Positions 33,267 through 48,459 of a DNA stretch of 64,000 nt are shown here, one piece after another. Under the pieces are notes generated by a model. It saw nothing but the letters and a program-made list of their open reading frames with translations, searched no databases and was not told the origin of the DNA. Location of the stretch: NCBI GenBank assembly GCA_019058365.1, contig JAHPZE010000006.1, forward strand, positions 46,080-110,079, read 5' to 3'. Each line of letters begins with the position of its first letter. The stretch's first letter is position 1. The position numbers and the translations under genes are program-made. The DNA comes from Promethearchaeota archaeon. GTDB lineage: Archaea; Asgardarchaeota; Lokiarchaeia; Sigyniarchaeales; SOKP01.

Positions 33267-36200
33267 ATGGGAATAGAATCTAATGAAAAAGTAAAAATTA
33301 AGCTTGGCGGAATGACATGCGCCTCTTGTGCATTGAAAATAGAGACAAAATTAAAAAGTTTAGAAGGTGTTAAAAGTTCTGTTGTCAATTTTGCAAATGA
33401 AGAAGCAACCGTTGAATATAACCCAACAGTAGCAAATTATAATGTTTTTAATGATGCAATACGAAATTTAGGTTATAAAGCATCACTTGCTAAGATGGAT
33501 ATTAAAATAATTGATTCCCTCCCAAAAAATGAGTTAGACATTTTGGAAAACAAAATTAAGCAAATTAATGGAATACAAAATATTAGAAGTAATTTTGAAG
33601 CACAGAAATTTTTCATTGAATTTAATGAATTAAAATTAAGTGAAAATGAAGTTTATTCATTAGTTAAAAATTTTGGATACAAAATTGAGAAAGCGGCAGG
33701 TGCTATAGATAAGGAAATTGAACAACATAAAAAAGAAATGAGATATCGCTTAATCCTTCTTATAATTTCATTAGCATTTGCAGCAATCATCGCCCCCATT
33801 AATTTTGTTATACCTGCTAATTTCACACGAAATTTAATACTAACCATTTTAGCGACTACTAACTACGCTATATCTGGGTCTTTCTTCCTAGGTGGTGCAT
33901 ATAAATCGCTTAAGAATAGATCAACAAATATGGATGTGTTGATTGTGTTAGGAACAACAACTGCTTATGTTTATTCTATACTAACTACTTTTTTTATATC
34001 GGGAGACGTTTTTTATGATGCGATGAGTATGATATTTGCTTTTATTTTAATAGGGAAATATTTAGAACATAAAACGAAAGGACAAGCTTCTGAGGCAATA
34101 AAGAAGCTTATTGGTTTGCAACCTAAAACAGCAACATTATTAAAAGAGGGAAAAGAGATTGAAATTCCTATTGAAGAGATAGAGATTGGTGATACTCTGG
34201 TAGTTAGACCGGGTGAGAAAATACCAGTTGATGGAAAAGTTCTTGAGGGCAAAACGAAAATCGATGAATCTATGATAACAGGTGAAAGTAAGTATGTTAA
34301 GAAAATTGTGGGAGATAATGTTATAGGTGCTACTGTAAATCAAACTGGACTAATCAAAATGACGACAGAAAAAATCGGAAAAGACACCCTTCTTTTTCAA
34401 ATTATTGATTTTGTTAAAGATGCTCAAGCTCGAAAGGGGTCAAGACAACGCTTAGCAGATAAAGTGAGCAGTTATTTTGTACCTATCGTGATTATAACTG
34501 CTACTCTTGCATTTTTATATTGGTATTTTATAGCAAATTTAGGTTATGAAATCGCACTACTAGTTTTTACATCCGTTGTTGTAATTTCTTGTCCTTGTGC
34601 TTTAGGATTAGCGATTCCCACTGCAATTATGGTTGGAACTGGGAAAGGTGCTGAAAATGGTATTCTTATGAAAGGAGGGGACTCATTAGAAGCTGTAAAT
34701 AATATCAATACTATCGTTTTCGATAAGACAGGAACTTTAACTGTTGGAAAACCAAAAGTAACTATGATTTATTCTGAAAAGGATTTAATAGGAAAAGGAT
34801 TAGGTAAAAAAGATATTCTTTATTTTGCAGGAAGTGCCGAAATGGGTTCTGAGCATCCACTTGGTCAGGCTATAATTGAAGAAGCAAATCAAGAAGGGTT
34901 AAAATTAGTATCTCCGAAAGAATTTGATGCAATACCAGGAAAAGGAATAATAACAAAAATAGATAATAAGCGAGTTTTTGTTGGCAATGAAAAATTATTC
35001 TTAACAAATGATTTCGCTTTCAATGAATATAATTCAAAATTTATTGAATCCCAGGAAAAGGGGAATACAACAGTCTTAATAGGTGTTGATGATCAAATTA
35101 AAGGAATTATTGGTATTGCTGATAAGGTGAAAGACCAAGCTAGCTACGCTCTTGAAAAGCTACGTGAGAGTGGATTGGATATATATATGTTAACTGGTGA
35201 TAATAAGAAAACTGCAATGAACATTGGAATGGACTTGAATTTTGATGAAGATCATATATTAGCAGAAGTATTACCTAATGAGAAAGCGCTTACGATCAAG
35301 AAACTTCAAGATTCTGGAGAAAATATACATGTTGCAATGGTAGGTGATGGAATAAATGATGCTCCTGCCTTAGCACAAGCGAATGTTGGAATTGCAATTG
35401 GTTCTGGAACAGATGTAGCTATTGAAACTGCAGATATTGTTCTTATGCGAGGTGATTTAAGAAACGTTGTAGCAGCAATCAAGTTATCCCAGAAAACATA
35501 TAGAAAAATGATTACTAACCTTTTCTGGGCATTTATTTATAATATTATTGGAATTCCCTTAGCAGCGGGGTTATTATTTACTTTTACAGGCAATTTTCTT
35601 CCACCATACTTAGCTGCGATATTTATGGCTTCAAGTTCCGTTTCAGTTGTCACAAATGCTTTATTCTTGAAAAGATATGAACCAAAAACTGAACAACAGA
35701 TCCAAGAAATGAAACTCTTAGCTGAACAGAAAGTAATTGATCCTATATGTGGAATGGAAATTATTCCTAGCCAATCAATTGAATATAAATTCAAAGGTAA
35801 GAATTATTATTTCTGTAGTGTTGTATGCGAAAAAGAATTTAAATTAAATCCTGCAAAATATGCTAATTTTCAAAATATTGACCCAAAATTAATGCAAAAA
35901 CAAGCTAATTCCTCAGAATTAGTCACTGATCCCGTCTGTGGTATGAAGGGACGTGTAGAAGATTGGATTGAACATGAATATAATGGAAAAAGATATTATT
36001 TCTGTAATGAAAATTGCATGAAAGAATTTAAAAATAATCCTGAGAAATATATCGAAAAAGAGAATCAAGAGGTATCAAAGGATATACCCGAAGAAACTGG
36101 GGAGATATTAAAATGTTCTGAGTGTGGTCATGAAATAGAATTACCAGAGCATTGTGGAAGACCCATGCATAAAGAGGATGATCAATTAGTATGTTGGATG

Positions 36201-36476
36201 GGTGCCTCTTGTGGTGCTCAACCAATTCCAAAACATCATGGGAAAACCATGGAAATTATAAAAAGTAAAATTAATGAAGAAAAAAATCTAAAGGAGGATG
36301 ATAAAAAAATGATAAGATTAAAATGTGAAGAATGTGGATTAGAACAAACACTTCCAATGCATTGTGGAAAACCTATGCATAAAGAAGGTGACCAATTAGT
36401 TTGTTGGATGGGTGCCTCTTGTGGCACAATACCAATCCCAGAACATCATGGTAAGCCAATGAACATAGTTGAATAA
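33267..36476 (+). CDS. copA: Copper-translocating P1B-type ATPase with YHS and Cys/His tail modules
   Basis: 1069 aa Cu(I) exporter. HMA domain with '[11 protein letters not shown]' (residues 12-80), a second HMA-like domain without cysteines (about 70-130), eight membrane helices, 'TGES', '[12 protein letters not shown]' (CPC about 441), 'DKTGTLT' (Asp about 485), 'SEHPLGQAI', 'GDGINDAPA' (about 692), and 'YNIIGIP' plus 'MASSSVSVV' in the last helices, the Cu(I)-ATPase signature. After helix 8 come two YHS domains ('PICGMEI', 'DPVCGMKG') and two copies of a Cys/His module (about 948-1000 and 1015-1069), each with 'CxxCG', 'HCG.PMHKE', '[10 protein letters not shown]' and 'HHGK.M'. Such a long metal-binding C-terminus is unusual. 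Confidence 0.93.
36291..36297 (+). promoter_or_regulatory. Strong internal Shine-Dalgarno sequence inside copA
   Basis: AAGGAGG lies within the copA frame, 11 nt before an in-frame ATG at 36309. Initiation there would make a separate 55-residue copy of the last Cys/His module (36309-36476). See the related free gene at 36504. Confidence 0.45.
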
Positions 36477-38228: not shown

Positions 38229-40691
38229 TTAATATGTTTTTGCAGTATTTGAAGAACGTAGTTTTTCAATTGCCTTTATCCACATATTTAACTGTGTTAA
38301 TAATTTCTGAGTATCTGGAACTCGACTTATTTGCTCTGAATATAGCGGATAATTTTTATATAGATTATTTAATAATTCAAGTAGAGATCTTTGGCTTTCT
38401 GTTTGATCTAGCATGTCTTTTTTTAACTGAAAAAGAGATCTTTTTTCCTTCTTAGATTTTAAGGCTTTTAGAAAGTTTTTAGTAACAATTATTCTGAACA
38501 GGGAATATTCCTCTGGTCTAAAATTTGCTAAAGAGAAGTTCATATTATTATCCGCAAATGGTAAAAAGAATATTTTTTTATCCTCTGGTTCATCTGGGTT
38601 ATCAATTAAAGTAAATTCAATATCTCTATTATCAAGCTCTTCTAAAATTGGATATAATTCTCCTGGAGTAATTTTTGTGGCTTGCTCAATTTGATTTGAA
38701 ATTTCAGAAATAGGAAAATTAAATTCGGGTGTTTTTTCAGGATTTTCAATTCGATAAATATATTCTTTTCTTATTATTTGCATAATTTGGTTTTCTAAAT
38801 CTTCAGCAAGATCTTCTGCAATAAAAGAAATTTGAGTTTTCTTTAACTTTTGTTGGAATAATTCTTTATCTCTTTGCTTTTTGCTATAATCAGCTGAAAG
38901 TGATGAGATAAAACTATCTGTTGGTTGATCACCTTCTACTGTACCTAATCTACTAGTTTTACTTTTTTTTTCTATAGCTGTATTGTATAACCTTTCGCTT
39001 AAATATCTCCTAGCTTTCTGATGAGCAACTTCTTTTTTCTCAAATCGCTCAGTTATAGAAACAAAATCAAGCATTTTCACAGGTTTTCCTAAATCTTGTT
39101 TTTCTTCCCTTATTAGAATATCCATATCTTTCTTTACCAATGTATCTAGAAGTGCATAAACATTACTTTTTGATAATTGAGTTGCTTTAATTAACTCTCG
39201 TTCAATTATTTCAATCGGGTAAGCCTCACCCCTTCGAATGTATTCACTTCTAATAATTTTATAGATCTTGTCTAGGCTTCTTTCCTCTTCACTAACAGTT
39301 TCTTTTTGTAATCTCATAAACATTGAAGTTTCGTGAGGTTTTATATAGTAAACTAATAGTGTGGTACCTAGGAAAAAAATCATAAGTACTGAGATAATAT
39401 ATTTATCCCACATTAATATTACACCCACATTAGATATTATTTGATTTGGTATTTCATTTGAAAGAGAGAAACGTGTCAATGTTTGAGCGAATACACAAGC
39501 TAAACAAAATAAAATTAAACCATCTTTTTTGAAGATAAGTATACGCCAACCAAGAGTTTTCCCAAGTTTCTTTACAATTCGATATAAAAAATACATTGAT
39601 ATGATAAATTCGAGTAAAAAGATATAAGAAACCGCAGAACCTGTTGCCCCAATTGTTGCTTTAAAAGCAGTAATTGTCTCATCTTGAAGCAACATATACA
39701 TACTGATTTGTAAAATTTGAAAGAAAAAGATAAAAAAAACAATCAATGCAAATGTTAAATTATCAAAAGTACCAGCTCTTTTAGTTTCAGCCCGTCGTCT
39801 AGTAGATACATATTCAAAGATGATAAAAACTAACGTCATTACTAAACTAAAGTAAATTAAGGGCATAATTCTCGTCATTTCTAAGTTATATACTGCCACA
39901 GCACTGCTTGGATCACTACGTCCGAAAAATTCCAAAGATAAGATTACTAAAAAGCTTCTGTAAAATAATGAAATTACTACAAGCATGCCTAGTATTATAA
40001 AAGGTATGATAATAGCTAAGAAATATCTTGGAATTGAATATTTCTTAATGAATCTGGCTTCTATTTTAGTTGAGAATTTTCGTGAATAAACATAAAACCG
40101 ACTACTTAATAAGACTAACCAAATCATCGCTAGGCTTAATAAATAGCTCATAAAATTGAGACTTGTTCCAACATATAGAAAAAGTATAAATAACGATAAA
40201 ATAAGACTACAATAAAATATTAATTGTTTAATCGCACTGTATTTTTCAAAAATAAAGAGTCTAAATTTATCTATACTAAGGAGAACAGATAAAATTAGAA
40301 AAAACGCCACAATTGTATTTGAAAACGCAAATGGATTACCAAATGTTAAGAAATTAATCCAAGACCCTGGAAAATTAATTGCTGTAATTAAAACTAAAGA
40401 ATAAAAAATAAATATAGCATATAATCCAAAAAACTTTTTTTCAAACGAATAAGATTTTGGTTCCTGACCATTAATATACACTTCTTGATGAATAATTTTA
40501 TCATAAAAACCAGATTTAATTTTAGATTTTAAATCACTTAAATTCGCCCTTTTTCGTGAAGCAAAAGCTTTAGCCTTATTCATTGGCTCTATTTTCCGCA
40601 TTTTTGAGGTTTTTGGCAATTTTAATACTTTAAAATTCTCTTGTTTTTTCTTGGTTTCTTCTTCAGAATTTTTTGCTTGCTTGCCAGACAT
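38229..40691 (-). CDS. Large multi-TM protein with two winged-helix-like cytosolic repeats
   Basis: 820 aa, not recognised. Basic N-terminus, about ten membrane helices between residues 85 and 455, then about 360 cytosolic residues. The cytosolic part holds two related blocks: about 480-540 ('IYKIIRSEYIRRGEAYPIEI', 'ATQLSKSNVYALLDTLVKKD') and about 640-705 ('IMQIIRKEYIYRIENP', 'ATKITPGELYPILEELDNRD'). Each has the helix-turn-helix plus wing look of a winged helix. This suggests a membrane-tethered sensor or regulator. It is divergent from a 98-aa gene with similar helical pattern. Confidence 0.6.
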   Translation of the reverse strand: MSGKQAKNSEEETKKKQENFKVLKLPKTSKMRKIEPMNKAKAFASRKRANLSDLKSKIKSGFYDKIIHQEVYINGQEPKSYSFEKKFFGLYAIFIFYSLVLITAINFPGSWINFLTFGNPFAFSNTIVAFFLILSVLLSIDKFRLFIFEKYSAIKQLIFYCSLILSLFILFLYVGTSLNFMSYLLSLAMIWLVLLSSRFYVYSRKFSTKIEARFIKKYSIPRYFLAIIIPFIILGMLVVISLFYRSFLVILSLEFFGRSDPSSAVAVYNLEMTRIMPLIYFSLVMTLVFIIFEYVSTRRRAETKRAGTFDNLTFALIVFFIFFFQILQISMYMLLQDETITAFKATIGATGSAVSYIFLLEFIISMYFLYRIVKKLGKTLGWRILIFKKDGLILFCLACVFAQTLTRFSLSNEIPNQIISNVGVILMWDKYIISVLMIFFLGTTLLVYYIKPHETSMFMRLQKETVSEEERSLDKIYKIIRSEYIRRGEAYPIEIIERELIKATQLSKSNVYALLDTLVKKDMDILIREEKQDLGKPVKMLDFVSITERFEKKEVAHQKARRYLSERLYNTAIEKKSKTSRLGTVEGDQPTDSFISSLSADYSKKQRDKELFQQKLKKTQISFIAEDLAEDLENQIMQIIRKEYIYRIENPEKTPEFNFPISEISNQIEQATKITPGELYPILEELDNRDIEFTLIDNPDEPEDKKIFFLPFADNNMNFSLANFRPEEYSLFRIIVTKNFLKALKSKKEKRSLFQLKKDMLDQTESQRSLLELLNNLYKNYPLYSEQISRVPDTQKLLTQLNMWIKAIEKLRSSNTAKTY

Positions 40692-40825: not shown

Positions 40826-41122
40826 ATGCATTTTAGTATTGTGAAAATGGAAAGAAAAGTTGAAAACAGAGAAAGCCTGTTAAAGTTAATCAAAAAAGCT
40901 ATTGAATTACTTGCCGAGAGGAATGTATCTCAAACAGTGATTTTATCTTCTTATAAGATTAACTCAGTTTTAAAAGAAAACTACGGCATAAATATAAAAG
41001 TTGATAAAATTGGAAGAATTCTGAGTAAAATTGCTAAGTTAAATGAATTAAAAAGGCTTAATACTAATATACCGAAGTATAAACTACAAATCTCAAAAGT
41101 TTCGAGTTTAGAATTCTTTTGA
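40826..41122 (+). CDS. Small basic protein, possible winged-helix
   Basis: 98 aa, lysine-rich. 'LLKLIKKAIELLAERNVSQT' and 'VDKIGRILSKIAKLNELKRL' resemble the helices of a small DNA-binding HTH unit followed by a wing-like strand 'KYKLQIS'. Two Met codons (1 and 8) are possible starts. It sits between the large membrane protein (divergent) and the MPN gene pair (convergent, stop 8 nt away). Not recognised with certainty. Confidence 0.5.
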   Translation: MHFSIVKMERKVENRESLLKLIKKAIELLAERNVSQTVILSSYKINSVLKENYGINIKVDKIGRILSKIAKLNELKRLNTNIPKYKLQISKVSSLEFF

Positions 41123-41130
41123 GTTTACCT

Positions 41131-42537
41131 TTAACCTAAATTTCGAAAGCTAGTAATTGTCTTTTGGAGTTTCTCAAGTAAAATTTTTATTTCTGAGTTA
41201 AATTCTTTGAATGGCTCCAACTCCGTGTTCAGTTTCTCGATTTTTTCATTCGTATTAGTTTGTAATGAAGTTATAGATTTTTCAATGCTTTTTTCAATAT
41301 TTTGAGCCAATGAGTTTACTTGAGTATTTGTATTTGTTAATTTAGATTGAAGATTTTTTATCAACTCTTCGATTTGTGAATTTATTTGCGTAGTCTCTTT
41401 AACCTTTCCAGATACAGAATTAATTACTAATTCCATCTCATTTTTAATATTTGATATATGACCTTCGATGAGAGTGTTTAGATTATCAATAAGATTATTC
41501 TTTGTGGTAGAGATATCTGTTATGAATTCTTTATTTTTTTTAACTCGAGTATCAACATAGTTAGAAACACTTTTTTTAAACTCAATTATCGTTTCATTCA
41601 ATGTCATATTGAACCAATTATCAACTTTAATTATTCCAGATGATATTGCATCCTTCATTTTATTTACTGATTTACTAATATACTCAGTGCCTTTAGATGT
41701 TCCCTGATTTACATCTTTAATCCAATCTCCAATTTGAGTTTTGACAATATTCATGAACATATTTGAGATTTTTTCTGTTCCTTGTTGTAAACCTAAAGCG
41801 ACTGAGGTTAATTCAGGATATTCTACAATTTCTTCTTCAACTGTCTGTGTTTCTTCTGTTTTTGGAATTTCTTGCAATTCTCCAAGAGGTTGTTCAACAA
41901 ATTCATTTATTTCCTTAATAAGAATAGGATTTTTTTTTTGGAAATCCTCTGAAAATTTTTGCACCCACTTAAAATACTCTAATGAGTTTGGAATTTCAAT
42001 TTTAAATGGTACCATATGATATTTATCAGCTTTAGTATAATCATCTAATCTATAAATTTCAAATCCAAGATTCCCATCCTTCCCCATGAGTGTATGATCA
42101 AAAACTATACTAAAACCATAAGGAAATTCCTCCTTTTGGAAATACTGTAAATTTACTAAATCACTCTCACTGAGGTACAAACCCCAAGAAGGGTGAGAAT
42201 GGTAATATCCTATTAAAGCAGATGAATATTTTTTACTGATCTCAGTAAATAAATCATAATCATCTTTATCAAATCCGATTTCTGCTTTATCTCCATGTGT
42301 TATAGGAACAGCATTTTCTACAAAGACTTTTTCTTCGATAGTATCATATTTTCCTACACAGACCCCCATAACTTCTATACTTTGTTCTAATTTATCATTA
42401 CCAAAACGTAGAACATGAGTAAGCATGTTTCTAAAAGCTTCCTTCTTAATGAATATATTTCCTTTTTCAGATTTACTTGTATCATCAAAATTTTTTTGAT
42501 TTATTTTTTGATTAGATTTTTTTTCAACCACTTTCAC
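41131..42537 (-). CDS. JAMM/MPN-domain protein with long C-terminal coiled coil (paralog 1)
   Basis: 468 aa. Residues 28-165 are an MPN domain with a complete JAMM metal site: Glu55 in 'IEVMG', 'HSHP' (His113, His115), Ser123 and Asp126. The 'EVMG' and 'YYHSHP' wording is that of Rpn11/CSN5-type deubiquitinases. After 'GFEIYRLDDY' and a conserved 'YHMVPF' linker, residues about 200-468 are mostly coiled coil ('MFMNIVKTQIGDWIKDV' onwards). Its GTG start overlaps the stop of the upstream paralog (GTGA). Likely metal-dependent isopeptidase or a scaffold with such activity; substrate unknown, since no ubiquitin, E1 or E2 gene is in the window. Confidence 0.8.
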   Translation of the reverse strand: MKVVEKKSNQKINQKNFDDTSKSEKGNIFIKKEAFRNMLTHVLRFGNDKLEQSIEVMGVCVGKYDTIEEKVFVENAVPITHGDKAEIGFDKDDYDLFTEISKKYSSALIGYYHSHPSWGLYLSESDLVNLQYFQKEEFPYGFSIVFDHTLMGKDGNLGFEIYRLDDYTKADKYHMVPFKIEIPNSLEYFKWVQKFSEDFQKKNPILIKEINEFVEQPLGELQEIPKTEETQTVEEEIVEYPELTSVALGLQQGTEKISNMFMNIVKTQIGDWIKDVNQGTSKGTEYISKSVNKMKDAISSGIIKVDNWFNMTLNETIIEFKKSVSNYVDTRVKKNKEFITDISTTKNNLIDNLNTLIEGHISNIKNEMELVINSVSGKVKETTQINSQIEELIKNLQSKLTNTNTQVNSLAQNIEKSIEKSITSLQTNTNEKIEKLNTELEPFKEFNSEIKILLEKLQKTITSFRNLG

Positions 42538-44015
42538 TCAACCCTCTCTGTTTCCAATTTTTTTATCTTAGCTAATAAATCTTGATTTTCTTTTCTTAAA
42601 TCTGTGAGATCATTTTGGAGCGTCTTGATTTCAACTTTTTGTGTTTCCAATTTGTTTTGTAGTGAAGTTTTTGAGCTCTCTAGTAATATTATAGCAGCTT
42701 TTAAATCTGATAGAAAGCTTTTTGATTCTTTATTTAAATTAATAAAAGTTCCTATGATTTTATTAACATTTTTTGTGAAAGTTCCAGATAAATCTTTTAT
42801 AATATTATCAAATTTTTCTGGAATTGTGTATTCTATTGAATTAAGGCTTTTAGATAAATTTTCTATAATATTACTTTGTTCATCCAAACTTTTAGAAGAT
42901 GCTAAACCTAATTTATTTATATTAGTTAATTCATCTATTTGGTTATTAAATTGAATTATAATACTGTTGATATTTTCCTTTAATTTTTCTTCAACTATTG
43001 ATTTAAATTGTCCATTAAGTTCAGTCTTGATATTATCAAATAGATCTTTAAAGATTTCTTGATCAGAATCAAATTCTTCAAATTTATCATCAATGTACAT
43101 GTCCAATTCGTTTAATTTTTCCTTAAAGGAAAATTTAAAATTTTTTTGAAGATTAGAAATCCCCTCACTTAACCTGTCTTTTATTGTAATCACATCTTTT
43201 CTTATTTGTAAATTATTCTTAACAGTAGTATTGATCAAATTTTCACTCCAAGAATTAAGAAATATGATAAATGGTGCGATAACAATTTCTAAGAACTTTG
43301 TTAATTCTGTATTGAGTGCAGATAAGATTTTAGTAGAATCTAATTCCGGTTTCTTTGTAAAAATTTGGCTTTCACTTGGAAATGCAATATCTCCAAAAAG
43401 ATCGGGCATTTCATTAATTTCCAATATAGGAGGCTCTTTTGAGTGAATATTATTTATTAAATTGATTAATTTTAAATAATATTCAATACTATCAGGAGGT
43501 GCTACAGACGCTTTTACCTCGTGATAACCTGACATTTGACCTTTGGCTGGATTATCTAATCGAAATGTACGAAATCCTAAATCTCCTGGTTTTTCTAAAT
43601 AAGCATGGTCAAAAACAATTCCTATGGCACTAGGGTTTGGAGTTTGCCAACCAAGTTGATTACGTATATCTGTTGAAGAAAAGAAAATATCCAGTTCGGG
43701 GTGAGAATGGTACCACCCACAACTAAACCAGTTTTTTTCAGCATAAGCAGCATCAACCATAGAAAATGTTACATAATCTTCTGGGGCAAATGCAACTTCT
43801 ATCGCACCACCGTGTGAAATGGGAATAGCATCTTCAATTATAACATCTCTAATTCCCTTCTTATCTGGTTCACCTTCACCTAATGATCCAATAAGTATTC
43901 CCATTACTTCTCGGTACTGCCTTTTATCTCTTGCTTTATTTCCAAAACGAAGGACATGTAGAAGCATTTTATAATAAGCTTCTGGTTTAATAATAACAGT
44001 TTTTTCAGAAGTCAA
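42534..44015 (-). CDS. JAMM/MPN-domain protein with long C-terminal coiled coil (paralog 2)
   Basis: 493 aa, same architecture as the downstream gene. JAMM residues are Glu36 ('REVMG'), His103 and His105 ('WYHSHP'), Ser113 and Asp116. 'GFRTFRLDN', then 'GYHEVKAS', links to about 280 residues of coiled coil with 'LQKNFKFSFKEKLNELDMYI' and a tight heptad tail ('LQNDLTDLRKENQDLLAKI'). Overlaps paralog 1 by 4 nt, so the two are made together and probably form a heteromer like the MPN pairs Rpn8-Rpn11 and BRCC36 complexes, with the difference that both keep the metal site. Confidence 0.8.
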   Translation of the reverse strand: MTSEKTVIIKPEAYYKMLLHVLRFGNKARDKRQYREVMGILIGSLGEGEPDKKGIRDVIIEDAIPISHGGAIEVAFAPEDYVTFSMVDAAYAEKNWFSCGWYHSHPELDIFFSSTDIRNQLGWQTPNPSAIGIVFDHAYLEKPGDLGFRTFRLDNPAKGQMSGYHEVKASVAPPDSIEYYLKLINLINNIHSKEPPILEINEMPDLFGDIAFPSESQIFTKKPELDSTKILSALNTELTKFLEIVIAPFIIFLNSWSENLINTTVKNNLQIRKDVITIKDRLSEGISNLQKNFKFSFKEKLNELDMYIDDKFEEFDSDQEIFKDLFDNIKTELNGQFKSIVEEKLKENINSIIIQFNNQIDELTNINKLGLASSKSLDEQSNIIENLSKSLNSIEYTIPEKFDNIIKDLSGTFTKNVNKIIGTFINLNKESKSFLSDLKAAIILLESSKTSLQNKLETQKVEIKTLQNDLTDLRKENQDLLAKIKKLETERVE

Positions 44016-44241
44016 TGATATTCACGATTTATGTTTTAGATTTAGTTTGTTAATGATCTATATATAGTTTAATTGGTTTTAAATATTTGAATAAAAAAAT
44101 TGAAAATTATATCTGGTCTTCTAATTTATTCTGTATTGAGTCTTCTTTTTCAGAGTAAATTTTGATTCTCTTTCCTTATTCTCTTAAATTATTAAATCAA
44201 ATAAAAAATAAAATAAGAATTAAAACAAATTTATTAAATCA

Positions 44242-44898
44242 TTAATCATGAGGTAATGGTTTACCACAGAAAGGACAGAATCGGAAGCCTAAGTCTTTAC
44301 CACAATGTGGACAAAAAGAACCTTCTACTCCTACTGGTGCTTTTTCCTCAACACCTTCTTTTGGTATTGAAGGTAACTCTCTTTTTGTTTTAAGAGTTGT
44401 AGCCGATGAGGCAGTACTAGGCAGTACCTCTTGTTTTGCCATCACTCTTTCCTTAAAAGCTTGTCTTCGTTCTTCTTCAAGTTCTTCTTGCGTTTTAGTA
44501 CCTTCTGTTTTAACCCAACCTTGAACCTTGGGTCTTTTCAATTCACTTTCAGGAACCCTTTCCAATTCTACTTCTTTAGTTTCTGATATTGGAGCAACTA
44601 CTTTTCTCTCATCCTTCTTCTGCAGGGCTTGTTTTACAAGAGCTTGAGTTGTTTTCATTACTTGATGGGGATTAATATTAGGGATTGCTACAGTCCTAAG
44701 AACCCAGCCTACAATAATATTTTGATTTGGAAAATCGCCTTCGACATCCTCATCTTTAAAAACATAAGAATCAATAATATCTTTCCCTTTTAACATGCGA
44801 ACAGCCCATTTCTCATTAATTAATCCTAATTGCAGTCTATAAGATGTTCCAGGTACGCCAAGTTGGCTCGTTAATGGTTCGAATCCTCTCTCTGTCAC
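44242..44898 (-). CDS. Hypothetical protein with C-terminal double zinc ribbon
   Basis: 218 aa. The N-terminal about 105 residues form an unrecognised compact domain ('SYRLQLGLINEKWAVRMLKG', 'QNIIVGWVLRTVAIPNINP'). A charged, low-complexity linker (105-185) follows. The last 30 residues are a zinc ribbon with 'FCPHCGK' and 'FCPFCGKPL'. Start is GTG at 44898. The opening 'ERGFEPLTSQ' looks like the spurious peptides read from tRNA genes, but no cloverleaf is found and the rest of the frame is clearly coding. It lies 226 nt upstream of the MPN pair on the same strand. Confidence 0.6.
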   Translation of the reverse strand: MTERGFEPLTSQLGVPGTSYRLQLGLINEKWAVRMLKGKDIIDSYVFKDEDVEGDFPNQNIIVGWVLRTVAIPNINPHQVMKTTQALVKQALQKKDERKVVAPISETKEVELERVPESELKRPKVQGWVKTEGTKTQEELEEERRQAFKERVMAKQEVLPSTASSATTLKTKRELPSIPKEGVEEKAPVGVEGSFCPHCGKDLGFRFCPFCGKPLPHD

Positions 44899-45143
44899 TT
44901 CAAATCACTTTTTTTCACTAAATTATATGAGATCAGTAATATTATAATGATAAATTTCGAATTTAAATTATTATTTATTTTTAAAATTTATCTTAAAGTT
45001 AAAAATTTTATCTGATTGATTAAGTTGATCGATAGTTAAAATGTTTAATTCTTATATTTTTGGTTTGGGATTAAAAACAAATAAATACAAATTATTCTAT
45101 TATCTTGTAAAATACCATTGTTGAAAATAACAGGATTTTTATC

Positions 45144-45461
45144 ATGACTGTAATAATTCCAAAGAATGATTATTTAACTTTAGTGGCCGCAACTATTAGA
45201 TTTGCTAATGCTCGTATTCCAAAGGATGATTGGTTAGAAGTTAGTGGCATCTTTACTGGAAGAAATGAAGGAGATGATGTATTCATAACAGAATGTTACC
45301 CCATCATGCATCAAGAATTAGATAAAGATGCGGTAATTGATCAATATAAATGGAATGATGAAGATTATGAAGCTCTTTATATCATCGATGATGAAGCATT
45401 TTCAAGAGATCCACCTGAGTTTGTGGTCGGATGGTGGCATAGTCATCCTGGCTTTATTTGA
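45144..45461 (+). CDS. JAMM/MPN-domain paralog 3, 5' fragment ending inside the active-site motif
   Basis: 105 codons: MPN strands with Glu32 ('LEVSG') and 'WWHSHPGF' (His99, His101), ending in TGA at 45459-45461. The Ser and Asp of the JAMM motif are encoded in the same frame 37 nt later in the next fragment. Two in-frame stops (TGA 45459, TAA 45483) separate them. Removal of 30 nt (about 45456-45485) gives 'HPGFKVMMSHIDIRT', with exactly the six residues between Pro and Ser found in paralogs 1 and 2. So this is one gene interrupted by a 30-nt insert, a pseudogene or an RNA-processed gene. Confidence 0.65.
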   Translation: MTVIIPKNDYLTLVAATIRFANARIPKDDWLEVSGIFTGRNEGDDVFITECYPIMHQELDKDAVIDQYKWNDEDYEALYIIDDEAFSRDPPEFVVGWWHSHPGFI

Positions 45462-45491
45462 ACTGGATTTACCAGACTTAGCTAAAAGGTA

Positions 45492-46130
45492 ATGATGAGT
45501 CACATCGATATTCGTACTACTCTATCATATCAACAAAATAATCCTTTGGCAATCTCACTAGTTTTTAATCCTACGAGACTTATTCGCCAGATCGAAGTAG
45601 CAAACAAAAAAGGAGATCCAGATATACAACTAAAAAATGATCCTGGGTTTAAAATATTCAGGTTAGATGATATTAATCGAGGTCTTGAAGCATCTTATCA
45701 TGCTATAGACTATAAAATTGAAGGATACGATAGTATGGAGCAATTGGTTACTTCAACTCAGAAATTTATTATCGATATTACTAATTTCTTCCCTAAGAAT
45801 AATGTTCCACAAACTTATGAGAAATATATTGATGATAGAATAACTCAATTAAATTCATTATTCCAGGGAACTGAAGAATATTTAACCACATTGACCTATC
45901 GTGGTGAAAAAAAGAGAATCCCAGAAGTTATAGAAAATCAAAGCAAAGAAATTAGGAAATTTGTAGCTGAAACAATTATAAAGATTGAAAATATTAAGGA
46001 ATTCATGAATTATTTAGAATATAAAGAAAGAGAAACATTAATTCCACAAATCAAGGCTATAATAAACAAATGGGATGAACAAGTTGTTGGATTAGATAAG
46101 AGAATAAAAGAACTAAAGAAGAAATTTTAA
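45492..46130 (+). CDS. JAMM/MPN-domain paralog 3, 3' fragment with coiled coil
   Basis: 212 codons in the same frame as the 5' fragment. It starts with the missing JAMM residues in 'MMSHIDIRTT' (Ser and Asp), continues with 'GFKIFRLDDINRG', 'SYHAIDYKIEG' as in paralogs 1 and 2, and ends in a short coiled coil of about 130 residues. The frame is intact with normal composition, so decay, if any, is recent. AAAAGG upstream of the ATG pair at 45492/45495 is too close for a good ribosome binding site. Confidence 0.65.
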   Translation: MMSHIDIRTTLSYQQNNPLAISLVFNPTRLIRQIEVANKKGDPDIQLKNDPGFKIFRLDDINRGLEASYHAIDYKIEGYDSMEQLVTSTQKFIIDITNFFPKNNVPQTYEKYIDDRITQLNSLFQGTEEYLTTLTYRGEKKRIPEVIENQSKEIRKFVAETIIKIENIKEFMNYLEYKERETLIPQIKAIINKWDEQVVGLDKRIKELKKKF

Positions 46131-46254: not shown

Positions 46255-48459
46255 ATGAGAAAAATTAATTTTCCTTTTACAGCGATTCTTGGTCAAGAGA
46301 AAATGAAGATGGGGTTAATCTTGAACGTTATTGACCCTCAAATAGGTGGTATCTTGTTAACTGGTCAACAAGGCACTGGAAAAAGTACTGCTGTAAGATC
46401 TCTCGTAGAACTGATGCCTCAAATTGAAATTGTTGCGGGTTGTGAATTTTCATGTGATCCTAATTCAGATATTGATGATTTATGCCAAAATTGCATAGAA
46501 AAAAAGGAAAAAGAGCAAATAACTACAGAATTCCGTGATATGTGGCTTGTAAATTTGCCTTTAGGAGTCACAGAAGATATGGTTTGTGGGAGTCTATCTA
46601 TAGATAAGGTATTAACTGAAGGAATAAGAGCTTTACACCCTGGGTTACTCGCGAAAGCAAATAGAGGTATTTTATATGTAGATGAAATTAATTTACTCCA
46701 AGATCATATCGTTGACGTTCTTCTAGATTCTGCAGCTTCAGGTGTAAATATCATAGAAAGAGAAGGAATCTCTATATCGCATCCTTCAAGATTCGTTCTG
46801 GTTGGTTCAATGAACCCAGAAGAGGGTGATTTAAGACCACAAATAGCAGATCGCTTGGGATTAGAAGTTAGGATTAAAGCCCCTAGAGATTCAGAATTAA
46901 GAGCAGAAATAACTAAAAGGGTTATAGAATTTGATGATCATCCAAAAGAATTTATTAAAAATTTTGAAGATGAACAAGAAAAATTAAGACAACAAATCCT
47001 TAATGCTCGTGATATTTTAAAGGAAGTTCAAATCCCTAGTTCTGTATATGAATTTGTATCCAAAATTGTAAATGAGTTAGAGATTTTTTCTCAAAGAGCA
47101 GATATTACTTTTATTCGATGTGCGAGAGCTCATGCTGCTTTAAATAGTAGAAAGGATATAGTTGAAGAAGATCTTAATGTGGCTATGGATTTAGTATTCG
47201 AACATAGAATTCAATCACTTCATTATGAAATGACACCGGTAGAAATTAAAGCAAAAATAGCTGAAGTATATGGCAAAATAAGAGAGGCTTATGAAAATAC
47301 AAAAGTACTCCAACCCAATAGAGAAACAGAAGGCCCTTTAAAGCATTCAGATGAACATCAAAAAGAGTTTAAACGTCAATCTGTTGATCCTGATAAAGTT
47401 GACATCCCAGAATCCCAAGAACAGAAATTACCCCCTCCAAAATACCCTGATAATAAAAAAAGAAATCCTAAACCCGCGGGAGGATGGAAAGTAAAGAATA
47501 TTCCTTTTGATGATGATCTTAGATTTTTTGAAGATAGACAAGTGGCTATGCCATTTATATATAAGATGGAAAAGAAAATGACCTCTATCTTAGATAACAT
47601 AAAAAAGGACAGAAAGATATCTGATTATGGTGGAAGAGGGATCGGTAGGAGAATCAAAATATCCTCATCCCAAAAGGGCAGATATGTATCTTACAGATCA
47701 CCTATACGTGAACAACCAAAAAGTATTGCTTTAGATGCTACCATTAGGAATTATTTAAAAAATATTGTATATAACGAAACTGAAATTGATTTCCCTATTC
47801 ATTTTAATAAATATGATTTAATGGATAAAATCTATGAATATCGCGCACCTTTAGCTCTCTTCTTTGTTTTAGATAGCTCAGCATCAATGTATTACGTAAT
47901 AAAACAAATGACAGACGTTATATTATCATTACATCGAGAGGGATATAGAAAGAGAGATAAAATAGCTCTCATTGTATTTCGAGGTAAGGATGCTATTGTA
48001 TTACAGAATCCCACTGTAAATTTTAACATGGCTATTAATAAATTGAAAAAAATTGAAGGTAAATCATATACTCCAATGGCAGCAGCTTTAAAGAAGGTAT
48101 CTGAGCTAATAAAAGTTGAGAAATTGAAGGATAGAAATATTATACCTATAGTCTTTATATGTAGCGATTGTGGAGCAAATATTTCTGTTAAATATCCTGA
48201 TTTAATAGCCCAAATTGAAACGGATTATTCTTTAATTACAAATGAATTAAAAGAATTAACAAAAAAATTATCAAAACAAAATATCCATATGGTTGTGCTA
48301 GAACCAAAAAAATCCTATGCGACACACGCTCTTGGTGTACACACATATTCAGCAGAACATATTAAAAAAAACTTTAAAAAATACGCGAATGCTCAGATTT
48401 ATAAGTTTAACAAATATAATCCCGACTCTTTAATATTAGAATTGAAAAAAATTCTCTAA
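46255..48459 (+). CDS. Magnesium-chelatase-like ChlI/ChlD fusion (AAA+ plus VWA)
   Basis: 734 aa. N-terminal AAA+ domain of the ChlI type: 'AILGQEKMK', Walker A 'TGQQGTGKST', the family's cysteine insertion ('CEFSCDPN' and 'LCQNC'), 'NLPLGVTEDMVCGSLSIDK', Walker B 'ILYVDEINLL', and 'GSMNPEEGDLRPQ'. A charged linker (about 355-430) leads to a VWA domain with an intact MIDAS 'LDSSASM' and 'GKSYTPMAAALKKV'. Such proteins drive metal insertion with a third (H) subunit such as CobN/ChlH, which is absent here. It could serve another client; the ATP-grasp gene follows 20 nt later. Confidence 0.85.
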   Translation: MRKINFPFTAILGQEKMKMGLILNVIDPQIGGILLTGQQGTGKSTAVRSLVELMPQIEIVAGCEFSCDPNSDIDDLCQNCIEKKEKEQITTEFRDMWLVNLPLGVTEDMVCGSLSIDKVLTEGIRALHPGLLAKANRGILYVDEINLLQDHIVDVLLDSAASGVNIIEREGISISHPSRFVLVGSMNPEEGDLRPQIADRLGLEVRIKAPRDSELRAEITKRVIEFDDHPKEFIKNFEDEQEKLRQQILNARDILKEVQIPSSVYEFVSKIVNELEIFSQRADITFIRCARAHAALNSRKDIVEEDLNVAMDLVFEHRIQSLHYEMTPVEIKAKIAEVYGKIREAYENTKVLQPNRETEGPLKHSDEHQKEFKRQSVDPDKVDIPESQEQKLPPPKYPDNKKRNPKPAGGWKVKNIPFDDDLRFFEDRQVAMPFIYKMEKKMTSILDNIKKDRKISDYGGRGIGRRIKISSSQKGRYVSYRSPIREQPKSIALDATIRNYLKNIVYNETEIDFPIHFNKYDLMDKIYEYRAPLALFFVLDSSASMYYVIKQMTDVILSLHREGYRKRDKIALIVFRGKDAIVLQNPTVNFNMAINKLKKIEGKSYTPMAAALKKVSELIKVEKLKDRNIIPIVFICSDCGANISVKYPDLIAQIETDYSLITNELKELTKKLSKQNIHMVVLEPKKSYATHALGVHTYSAEHIKKNFKKYANAQIYKFNKYNPDSLILELKKIL

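Follow-up and report, generated by a model that had tools for sequence, protein, structure and literature searches.

An intron in crenarchaeal cbf5 pre-mRNA was reportedly described by Watanabe in 2002 and, apart from the candidates presented here, it is the only archaeal protein-coding intron of the bulge-helix-bulge (BHB) type that our literature search found. The unconventional BHBs of cbf5 are substrates of hetero-oligomeric enzymes, according to the accessible part of Yokobori 2009 (PMC2738675), and the accessible text of a 2020 paper (PMC7714728) treats the cbf5 intron as the sole case reported to date besides its own, which lies in the 5' untranslated region (UTR) of the Haloferax HVO_1309 mRNA. 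In three other Asgard genomes, 92-95% of tRNA genes contain introns (accessible part of PMC11291895); the literature search, with preprints and many subscription papers outside its reach, found no publication on mRNA BHB introns in Asgard archaea. Here we describe a locus in a 64,000-nt window, the whole stretch of DNA analyzed, from a genome of the Lokiarchaeia. The best explanation for this locus, which we hold with considerable confidence, is that it is a conserved-order locus of three MPN-coiled-coil proteins, MPN_A, MPN_B and MPN_C, in which MPN_C is an intact gene carrying a predicted 30-nt BHB intron that would be spliced from the mRNA. Coordinates refer to the window throughout, and the codes G, L and P denote genomes (G000 being the window's own), stretches and proteins, respectively.

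MPN_C contains two in-frame stops, TGA at 45459-45461 and TAA at 45483-45485, both within a 30-nt insert, and relatives carry HSHPGFKVMMSHID at the place where the window has the stops. The reading frames are open on both flanks of the insert in the carriers, and the joined exons would encode 318 residues in the window. Base-by-base reading of 34 sites (33 genomes and L018, a stretch from a metagenome-assembled genome) revealed no insert at 29 of them and an insert of 29 to 31 nt at five (G000, G001, G003, G016 and G018), at the identical base position and with diverged sequence; the 6 bases between the anchors in G023 are an offset and were counted as no insert. A family search recovered MPN_C at E <= 1e-40 in 56 of 65 genomes, 55 of which cover the site (the match in G080 is partial), and five of these carry the insert; 22 of the 55 were scored solely via full-length matches free of stops. 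All five carriers belong to the genus of the window, where they are 5 of 17 genomes.

The two stops, and the uninterrupted gene in 50 of the 55 family genomes, would be consistent with MPN_C being a pseudogene or an assembly error and the insert random damage, and an earlier note, made from the sequence of the window alone, had indeed called the gene broken. However, the insert lies at the identical base in other genomes while its sequence has diverged, its length is confined to 29-31 nt, it forms a helix with compensatory changes, and inserts of the same kind are present in two other genes (see below). In addition, exon 2 is under purifying selection in the carriers, with dN/dS of approximately 0.1 (five carrier-relative pairs, dN 0.06-0.18, dS 0.73-2.1; for example, dN and dS are 0.070 and 0.727 for G000-G010 and 0.062 and 0.729 for G016-G008). 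We consider this reading highly improbable and, with a BHB-intron-like insert recurring at one site of a gene on which purifying selection acts, we do not call MPN_C broken.

RNAfold returned a BHB-like fold for the window and for G018. In the alignment of the five inserts, 96.4% of the cells of the named structure are paired, and 3 of its 11 pairs are changed on both sides (18-50 and 19-49 in the exon-intron helix, 30-42 in the hairpin), with no such pair in slid versions. A 4-bp central helix occupies the position that the BHB rule sets for it, with a 3-nt bulge at either end on opposite strands, in all seven inserts considered (the five of MPN_C and those of G030 and G012, described below), with outer flanking helices of 2-3 of 3 bp and inner ones of 0-3 of 3 bp. 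Under the same rule, a predicted cut separating bulge bases 2 and 3 would recover the residues of relatives in all seven cases; in MPN_C it would yield GFKVMM (DFKVMM in G001), as in the intron-free relatives. The 4-bp helix arose in 3-11% of shuffled MPN_C inserts, and pairing as complete as that observed in 2.9% (G000), 0.12% (G018), 0.14% (G001), 1.9% (G016) and 7.9% (G003).

The insert might alternatively be recoded, with the ribosome reading through it by means of selenocysteine or pyrrolysine or bypassing it, as its shortness, its hairpin and its length of 30 nt, a multiple of three, in two of the five carriers would permit. In the other three carriers, however, the insert is 29 or 31 nt long, and therefore read-through would shift the frame. 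Moreover, the stop codons differ between carriers (TGA and TAA in G000, TAG in G018), no matching take-off and landing codons were seen by eye, and the pairing extends from exon into intron, which a BHB needs. We therefore give recoding very little credence. Group I or II introns and inteins, with hundreds of bases and a ribozyme core or protein-splicing domain, were rejected for inserts of just 29-31 nt, and Rfam gave no match above the gathering score in the window.

The intron is identical at 28 of 30 positions for both G000-G016 and G000-G003, and those of G001 and G018 are more different. Synonymous sites of MPN_C are saturated for G000-G016, and dS is approximately 2 for G000-G003. When 45456-45485 is set against the inserts of L059 and L060, the intron is far better conserved than the MPN_C synonymous sites among distant carriers. 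Such conservation suggests either lateral movement or strong RNA constraint. A mobile repeat was rejected as a candidate: at up to 2 mismatches, the intron core pattern occurs once each in G000, G003, G016 and G050 among 58 genomes, and the G050 match, with 2 mismatches, is at chance level because a backward control pattern also gives 2 matches.

A split-gene scan covered 114 stretches totalling 1.98 Mb, with homologous alignment over 1.33 Mb; these are no random sample because they surround this locus or other MPN or AAA genes. With the support of many homologues it returned MPN_C, the AAA+/vWA gene of G030 and one N run. The G030 insert is 30 nt long and pairs exon CGAA with intron UUCG, with UCC:GGA as the outer and UCU:GGA as the inner helix; its removal would restore NPEEGELRPQ. 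Among the 34 family genomes whose match to this gene is nearly full length, one has the insert. With the support of one homologue, the scan also returned a 29-nt insert in a LURP-one-like gene of G012; it combines AAAG:CUUU with an inner AAU:AUU and a UUGAG:CUCAA stem, and its removal would restore KEKYWDWGSGD. The fractions of shuffles pairing as well were 0.0009 (G030) and 0.0005 (G012), and both inserts are non-homologous to that of MPN_C while obeying the same BHB rule. Rejected candidates comprise the break in the L011 AAA+/vWA gene, which is a run of N, and 11 other stop-bearing inserts (ten supported by a single homologue and L079 by two) at gene junctions or ends, in upstream stretches, in antisense open reading frames (ORFs) or in one decayed copy; none of the 11 is a 29-31-nt insert within an otherwise continuous gene. 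Stretch L241 (G013) holds two neighbouring copies, named by reading as DNA-methyltransferase-like, one of which is decayed with an 18-nt difference.

The C-terminal half of MPN_C has 467 homologues; among the best 120 of these, 21 are proteins of 210-212 aa that begin just past the insert site, 20 with M(M)SHID and one with MMLHID. Known carriers among these are the window's own genome and at least one other (G018, on a 26,364-base contig). Several of the half proteins are on contigs of >20 kb, and therefore contig ends cannot explain all of them. P0013, P0019, P0025 and others are close homologues whose source names, Thorarchaeota, Hodarchaeota or Hermodarchaeota, disagree with the Lokiarchaeal setting; these may be bin labels. 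The window genome has two proteins of the tRNA-splicing-endonuclease type (PF01974 matches on C26 and C12), one of which by eye has EHSLF and the other KDSAKF at the same place, the His of EHSLF being presumably catalytic, and one RtcB; for this genome, endonuclease and ligase are thus found together in the same cell. We propose that the tRNA-splicing endonuclease would cut the MPN_C transcript at 45455/45456 and 45485/45486 and that the exons would be sealed, probably by RtcB. Unspliced mRNA would yield a stub, of 105 residues in the window, that lacks the Ser and Asp of the JAMM site; an active site would therefore depend on splicing.

The predicted MPN_C intron resembles that of cbf5 (accessible part of PMC2738675) in interrupting a protein gene, in its BHB fold with a cut at bulge 2/3, in its patchy occurrence among relatives and in the link to a hetero-oligomeric endonuclease. 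It differs in that the cbf5 intron is found in Crenarchaeota, whereas here the organisms are Lokiarchaeia, the genes are JAMM, AAA+/vWA and LURP-one-like, and splicing is a prediction. With the Haloferax HVO_1309 mRNA (accessible text of PMC7714728) the likeness is a tRNA-splicing endonuclease acting on mRNA, which is a prediction here; the HVO_1309 site is in the 5' UTR, whereas the MPN_C insert interrupts an active-site motif.

The presence of three JAMM/MPN paralogues at 41131-46130, as the earlier note had claimed, was confirmed by JAB (PF01398) matches above the Pfam cut-off of 22.5 bits for MPN_A (35.7), MPN_B (42.6) and the first piece of MPN_C (36.9), and the full JAMM site that it had read in them (Glu, HSHP, Ser and Asp) is present in all three proteins of the window genome. 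MPN_A (468 aa) and MPN_B (493 aa) are, as described, intact minus-strand genes overlapping by 4 nt. Resemblance to Rpn11 and CSN5 was borne out by profile and fold comparisons. In the profile searches the top solved structures were Caldiarchaeum CsRpn11 for MPN_B (8.1e-14), CSN5 for MPN_C (5e-13) and DrBRCC36 for MPN_A (6.8e-12). Foldseek placed CSN5 first for MPN_C and BRCC36 first for MPN_B, with query TM-scores of 0.39 and 0.28 and a full-length root mean square deviation near 20; therefore, only the MPN part is well matched. The model of L007 MPN_C (pLDDT 87.2) is an MPN domain with a helical bundle, and that of the window's MPN_B (pLDDT 75.8, pTM 0.44) an MPN domain with helices of ~80 and ~170 residues. 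The proposed coiled-coil tails thus stand insofar as long helices follow the MPN domain in both models, but the MPN_C tail is a bundle and not one long coil.

JAMM residues were compared in 28 of 36 MPN_B, 21 of 25 MPN_C and 29 of 37 MPN_A sequences; those set aside were near-duplicates, one half gene and some others. All five residues are complete in 26/28 MPN_B (the other two lack only the aligned Glu), 21/21 MPN_C (with Thr for Ser in three rows) and 10/29 MPN_A sequences. Of the 19 MPN_A rows with an incomplete site, three differ solely at the Glu column and 16 have lost one or more of His, His, Ser/Thr and Asp, and the residues lost differ by lineage. Judged by sequence, MPN_A would often be inactive. 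An MPN fold with Glu, HxHP, Ser/Thr and Asp was found for MPN_B and MPN_C. In four MPN_C genes (L057, L058, L064 and L077), SGFGDRKTT replaces SHIDIRTT, which shifts the JAMM Asp by one residue.

BRCC36 and Abraxas form one type of MPN+/MPN- pair. Rpn11-Rpn8 and CSN5-CSN6 are likewise MPN+/MPN- pairs (accessible part of PMC6043591). MPN_A and MPN_B are both complete in the window itself, and the cluster had been said to differ from such eukaryotic pairs; this was not supported across the orthologues, where MPN_A is often incomplete and MPN_B nearly always complete, and therefore A/B may rather resemble a eukaryotic MPN-/MPN+ pair. The adjacency of the genes and the helices after the MPN domain are further likenesses. 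The differences are that MPN_A is complete in 10/29 sequences, that the genome has no convincing PCI scaffold and that the dimer is putative here. Like the MPN proteins described here, CsRpn11 (6fjv/6fju; accessible part of PMC6043591) is an archaeal JAMM protein with a eukaryote-like motif; however, it belongs to a ubiquitin operon and forms a homodimer, whereas here three long-helix paralogues lie away from ubiquitin genes.

We propose that spliced MPN_C and MPN_B would be zinc isopeptidases acting on ubiquitin-like conjugates and that MPN_A may be a partner in which catalysis has been or is being lost, much as Rpn8 partners Rpn11. A heteromeric isopeptidase complex is plausible, and the analysis brought up nothing pertinent to the filament complex that the earlier note had offered as the alternative. 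The three proteins could instead be structural or RNA-linked scaffolds, as the loss of JAMM residues in the 16 MPN_A orthologues, the lack of a ubiquitin gene in the cluster and neighbours suggestive of other chemistry (AAA+/vWA, Roadblock) might indicate. We regard this as unlikely, given the JAMM conservation in MPN_C and MPN_B and the closeness of CSN5, Rpn11 and BRCC36 as solved relatives by profile.

Several observations weigh against an intact, intron-bearing MPN_C or its wider setting. The pairing in the window (0.029) and in G003 (0.079) is only moderately unlikely compared with shuffles, G000 and G003 have no inner helix beside the bulge, and the outer helix is broken at one pair in two of the five sequences. 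For these five sequences, the covariation score was matched by 5 of 500 shuffles and the tally of pairs with both partners changed by 12 of 500, and the count of further pair types was not above shuffles (500/500). The five carriers form no clade on the exon-2 tree, and therefore several gains or losses are needed; the scattered carriers imply 5 changes, 4 of them forced by starred branches, with a shuffled mean of 4.8. P0117 is identical throughout to the end of the L015 MPN_C, an intact gene, so that half genes need not imply introns. The LURP-one-like case consists of one genome and one full-length homologue. Finally, in three of the 21 MPN_C rows scored as complete (L058, L064 and L077) the Asp lies one residue further on (SGFGD).

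The order of the locus (Table 1) was assessed by counting gene pairs in 36 stretches of other genomes, only where both genes were found; 7 of 43 stretches were omitted as duplicates or split contigs. MPN_B and MPN_A lie on the same strand within 300 nt in 34/35 stretches. The zinc-ribbon gene is adjacent to MPN_B in 30/30 and opposite MPN_C in 26/26, the basic protein gene adjoins MPN_A in 30/30 and the TM10 gene in 26/26, and the AAA+/vWA gene adjoins MPN_C in 22/23 and an ATP-grasp-like gene (named by reading of the ORF), which comes after it, in 20/20. In the one AAA+/vWA-MPN_C exception, L052, the two genes are set apart by approximately 4.6 kb of additional DNA; this stretch is from G030, the same genome whose AAA+/vWA gene bears the intron-like insert. 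The pair counts leave aside G032 and G024, where MPN_C is ~14-20 kb distant, and G004, where it is remote. Likewise uncounted are three order-level stretches, L071, L073 and L074 (G048, G038 and G040), which have MPN pairs without the other locus genes, L071 and L073 being short or near contig ends. MPN_B-like matches, paralogues included, occur in 56 of 58 genomes searched, the window's own among them. The order is thus widely kept in the family, within which single paralogues with unrelated neighbours are not the rule.

Table 1. Coordinates of the MPN locus, the predicted intron and neighbouring genes in the window
Feature	Position	Strand	Remarks
MPN_A	41131..42537	-	MPN domain, JAMM complete in window, coiled-coil-like tail
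MPN_B	42534..44015	-	MPN domain, full JAMM site, then long helices
MPN_C, whole gene	45144-46130	+	Opposite orientation to MPN_A/MPN_B
MPN_C exon 1	45144..45455	+	Start to ...HSHPGF; end is predicted 5' splice site
Predicted BHB mini-intron, 30 nt, within MPN_C JAMM motif	45456..45485	+	In-frame TGA and TAA
MPN_C exon 2	45486..46130	+	K-VMMSHID... to stop
Central 4-bp helix, 5' strand GGCT	45450..45453	+	In exon 1; partner 45480-45483
Central 4-bp helix, 3' strand AGCT	45480..45483	+	In intron; compensatory changes in G001, G003
Intron hairpin CTGG...CCAG	45463..45475	+	One pair changed on both sides
Conserved protein, C-terminal zinc-ribbon-like Cys pairs	44242..44898	-	Upstream of MPN_B; zinc-ribbon models below cut-off
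AAA+ (Mg-chelatase-like)/vWA protein	46255..48459	+	Downstream of MPN_C
Small basic protein	40826..41122	+	Faces MPN_A
Large protein (TM10), hydrophobic N-terminal half by eye	38229..40691	-	Weak PadR match, below cut-off

The zinc-ribbon, small basic and large hydrophobic neighbours that the earlier note had listed were all found at the locus, and a Roadblock match is also among the neighbours. A tRNA gene over the zinc-ribbon start (44860-44898, resembling the antisense of a tRNA 3' half) was rejected, as ARAGORN and Rfam gave no match there and the segment encodes the conserved protein N-terminus. At 33267-36476 lies what reads as a copper-type P-type ATPase, with repeated Cys-rich domains at the C-terminus.

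No ubiquitin, E1 or E2 was seen among the cluster genes, in agreement with the earlier reading. The window genome has six JAB matches, three at the locus and the others on C34, C12 and C33, and three ubiquitin-domain matches, one at C34:128741. The C34 JAB gene stands beside E2-like and E1-like ORFs (named by reading) and has the archaeal ubiquitin-operon setting, beside ubiquitin, E1 and E2, that the cluster lacks; the C12 JAB gene has a long repeat-like tail. A PCI profile search of the window genome gave four matches above the 22-bit cut-off (22.4-36.5 bits; two in one frame), with matches in 2 of 14 control genomes too, and revealed no convincing PCI scaffold. A 790-aa zinc-ribbon-like protein on G000:C40 (L201) matches the PCI profile weakly at two places. 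The literature search found no published description of the MPN cluster, and the terms JAMM, MPN, JAB and Rpn11 are absent from PMC9192718.

A broader interpretation, to which we give somewhat less than even weight, is that Lokiarchaeia may carry scattered protein-gene introns of ~30 bases, removed by the tRNA endonuclease and gained or lost site-specifically as if moving, that the MPN_C intron may function as a JAMM-protease switch, and that the paralogues may be the first archaeal MPN-/MPN+ pair. The difficulty of gene finding in intron-split archaeal genes was raised by Yokobori et al. (accessible part of PMC2738675). If the inserts are spliced, gene finders split such genes in two, and therefore Asgard protein lists would miss genes. 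Splicing would also mean that a group near the archaeal roots of eukaryotes has protein-coding introns, in three genes or more, and that these are processed by an enzyme family still serving eukaryotes for tRNA introns and, in the case of the ligase, also for XBP1 mRNA.

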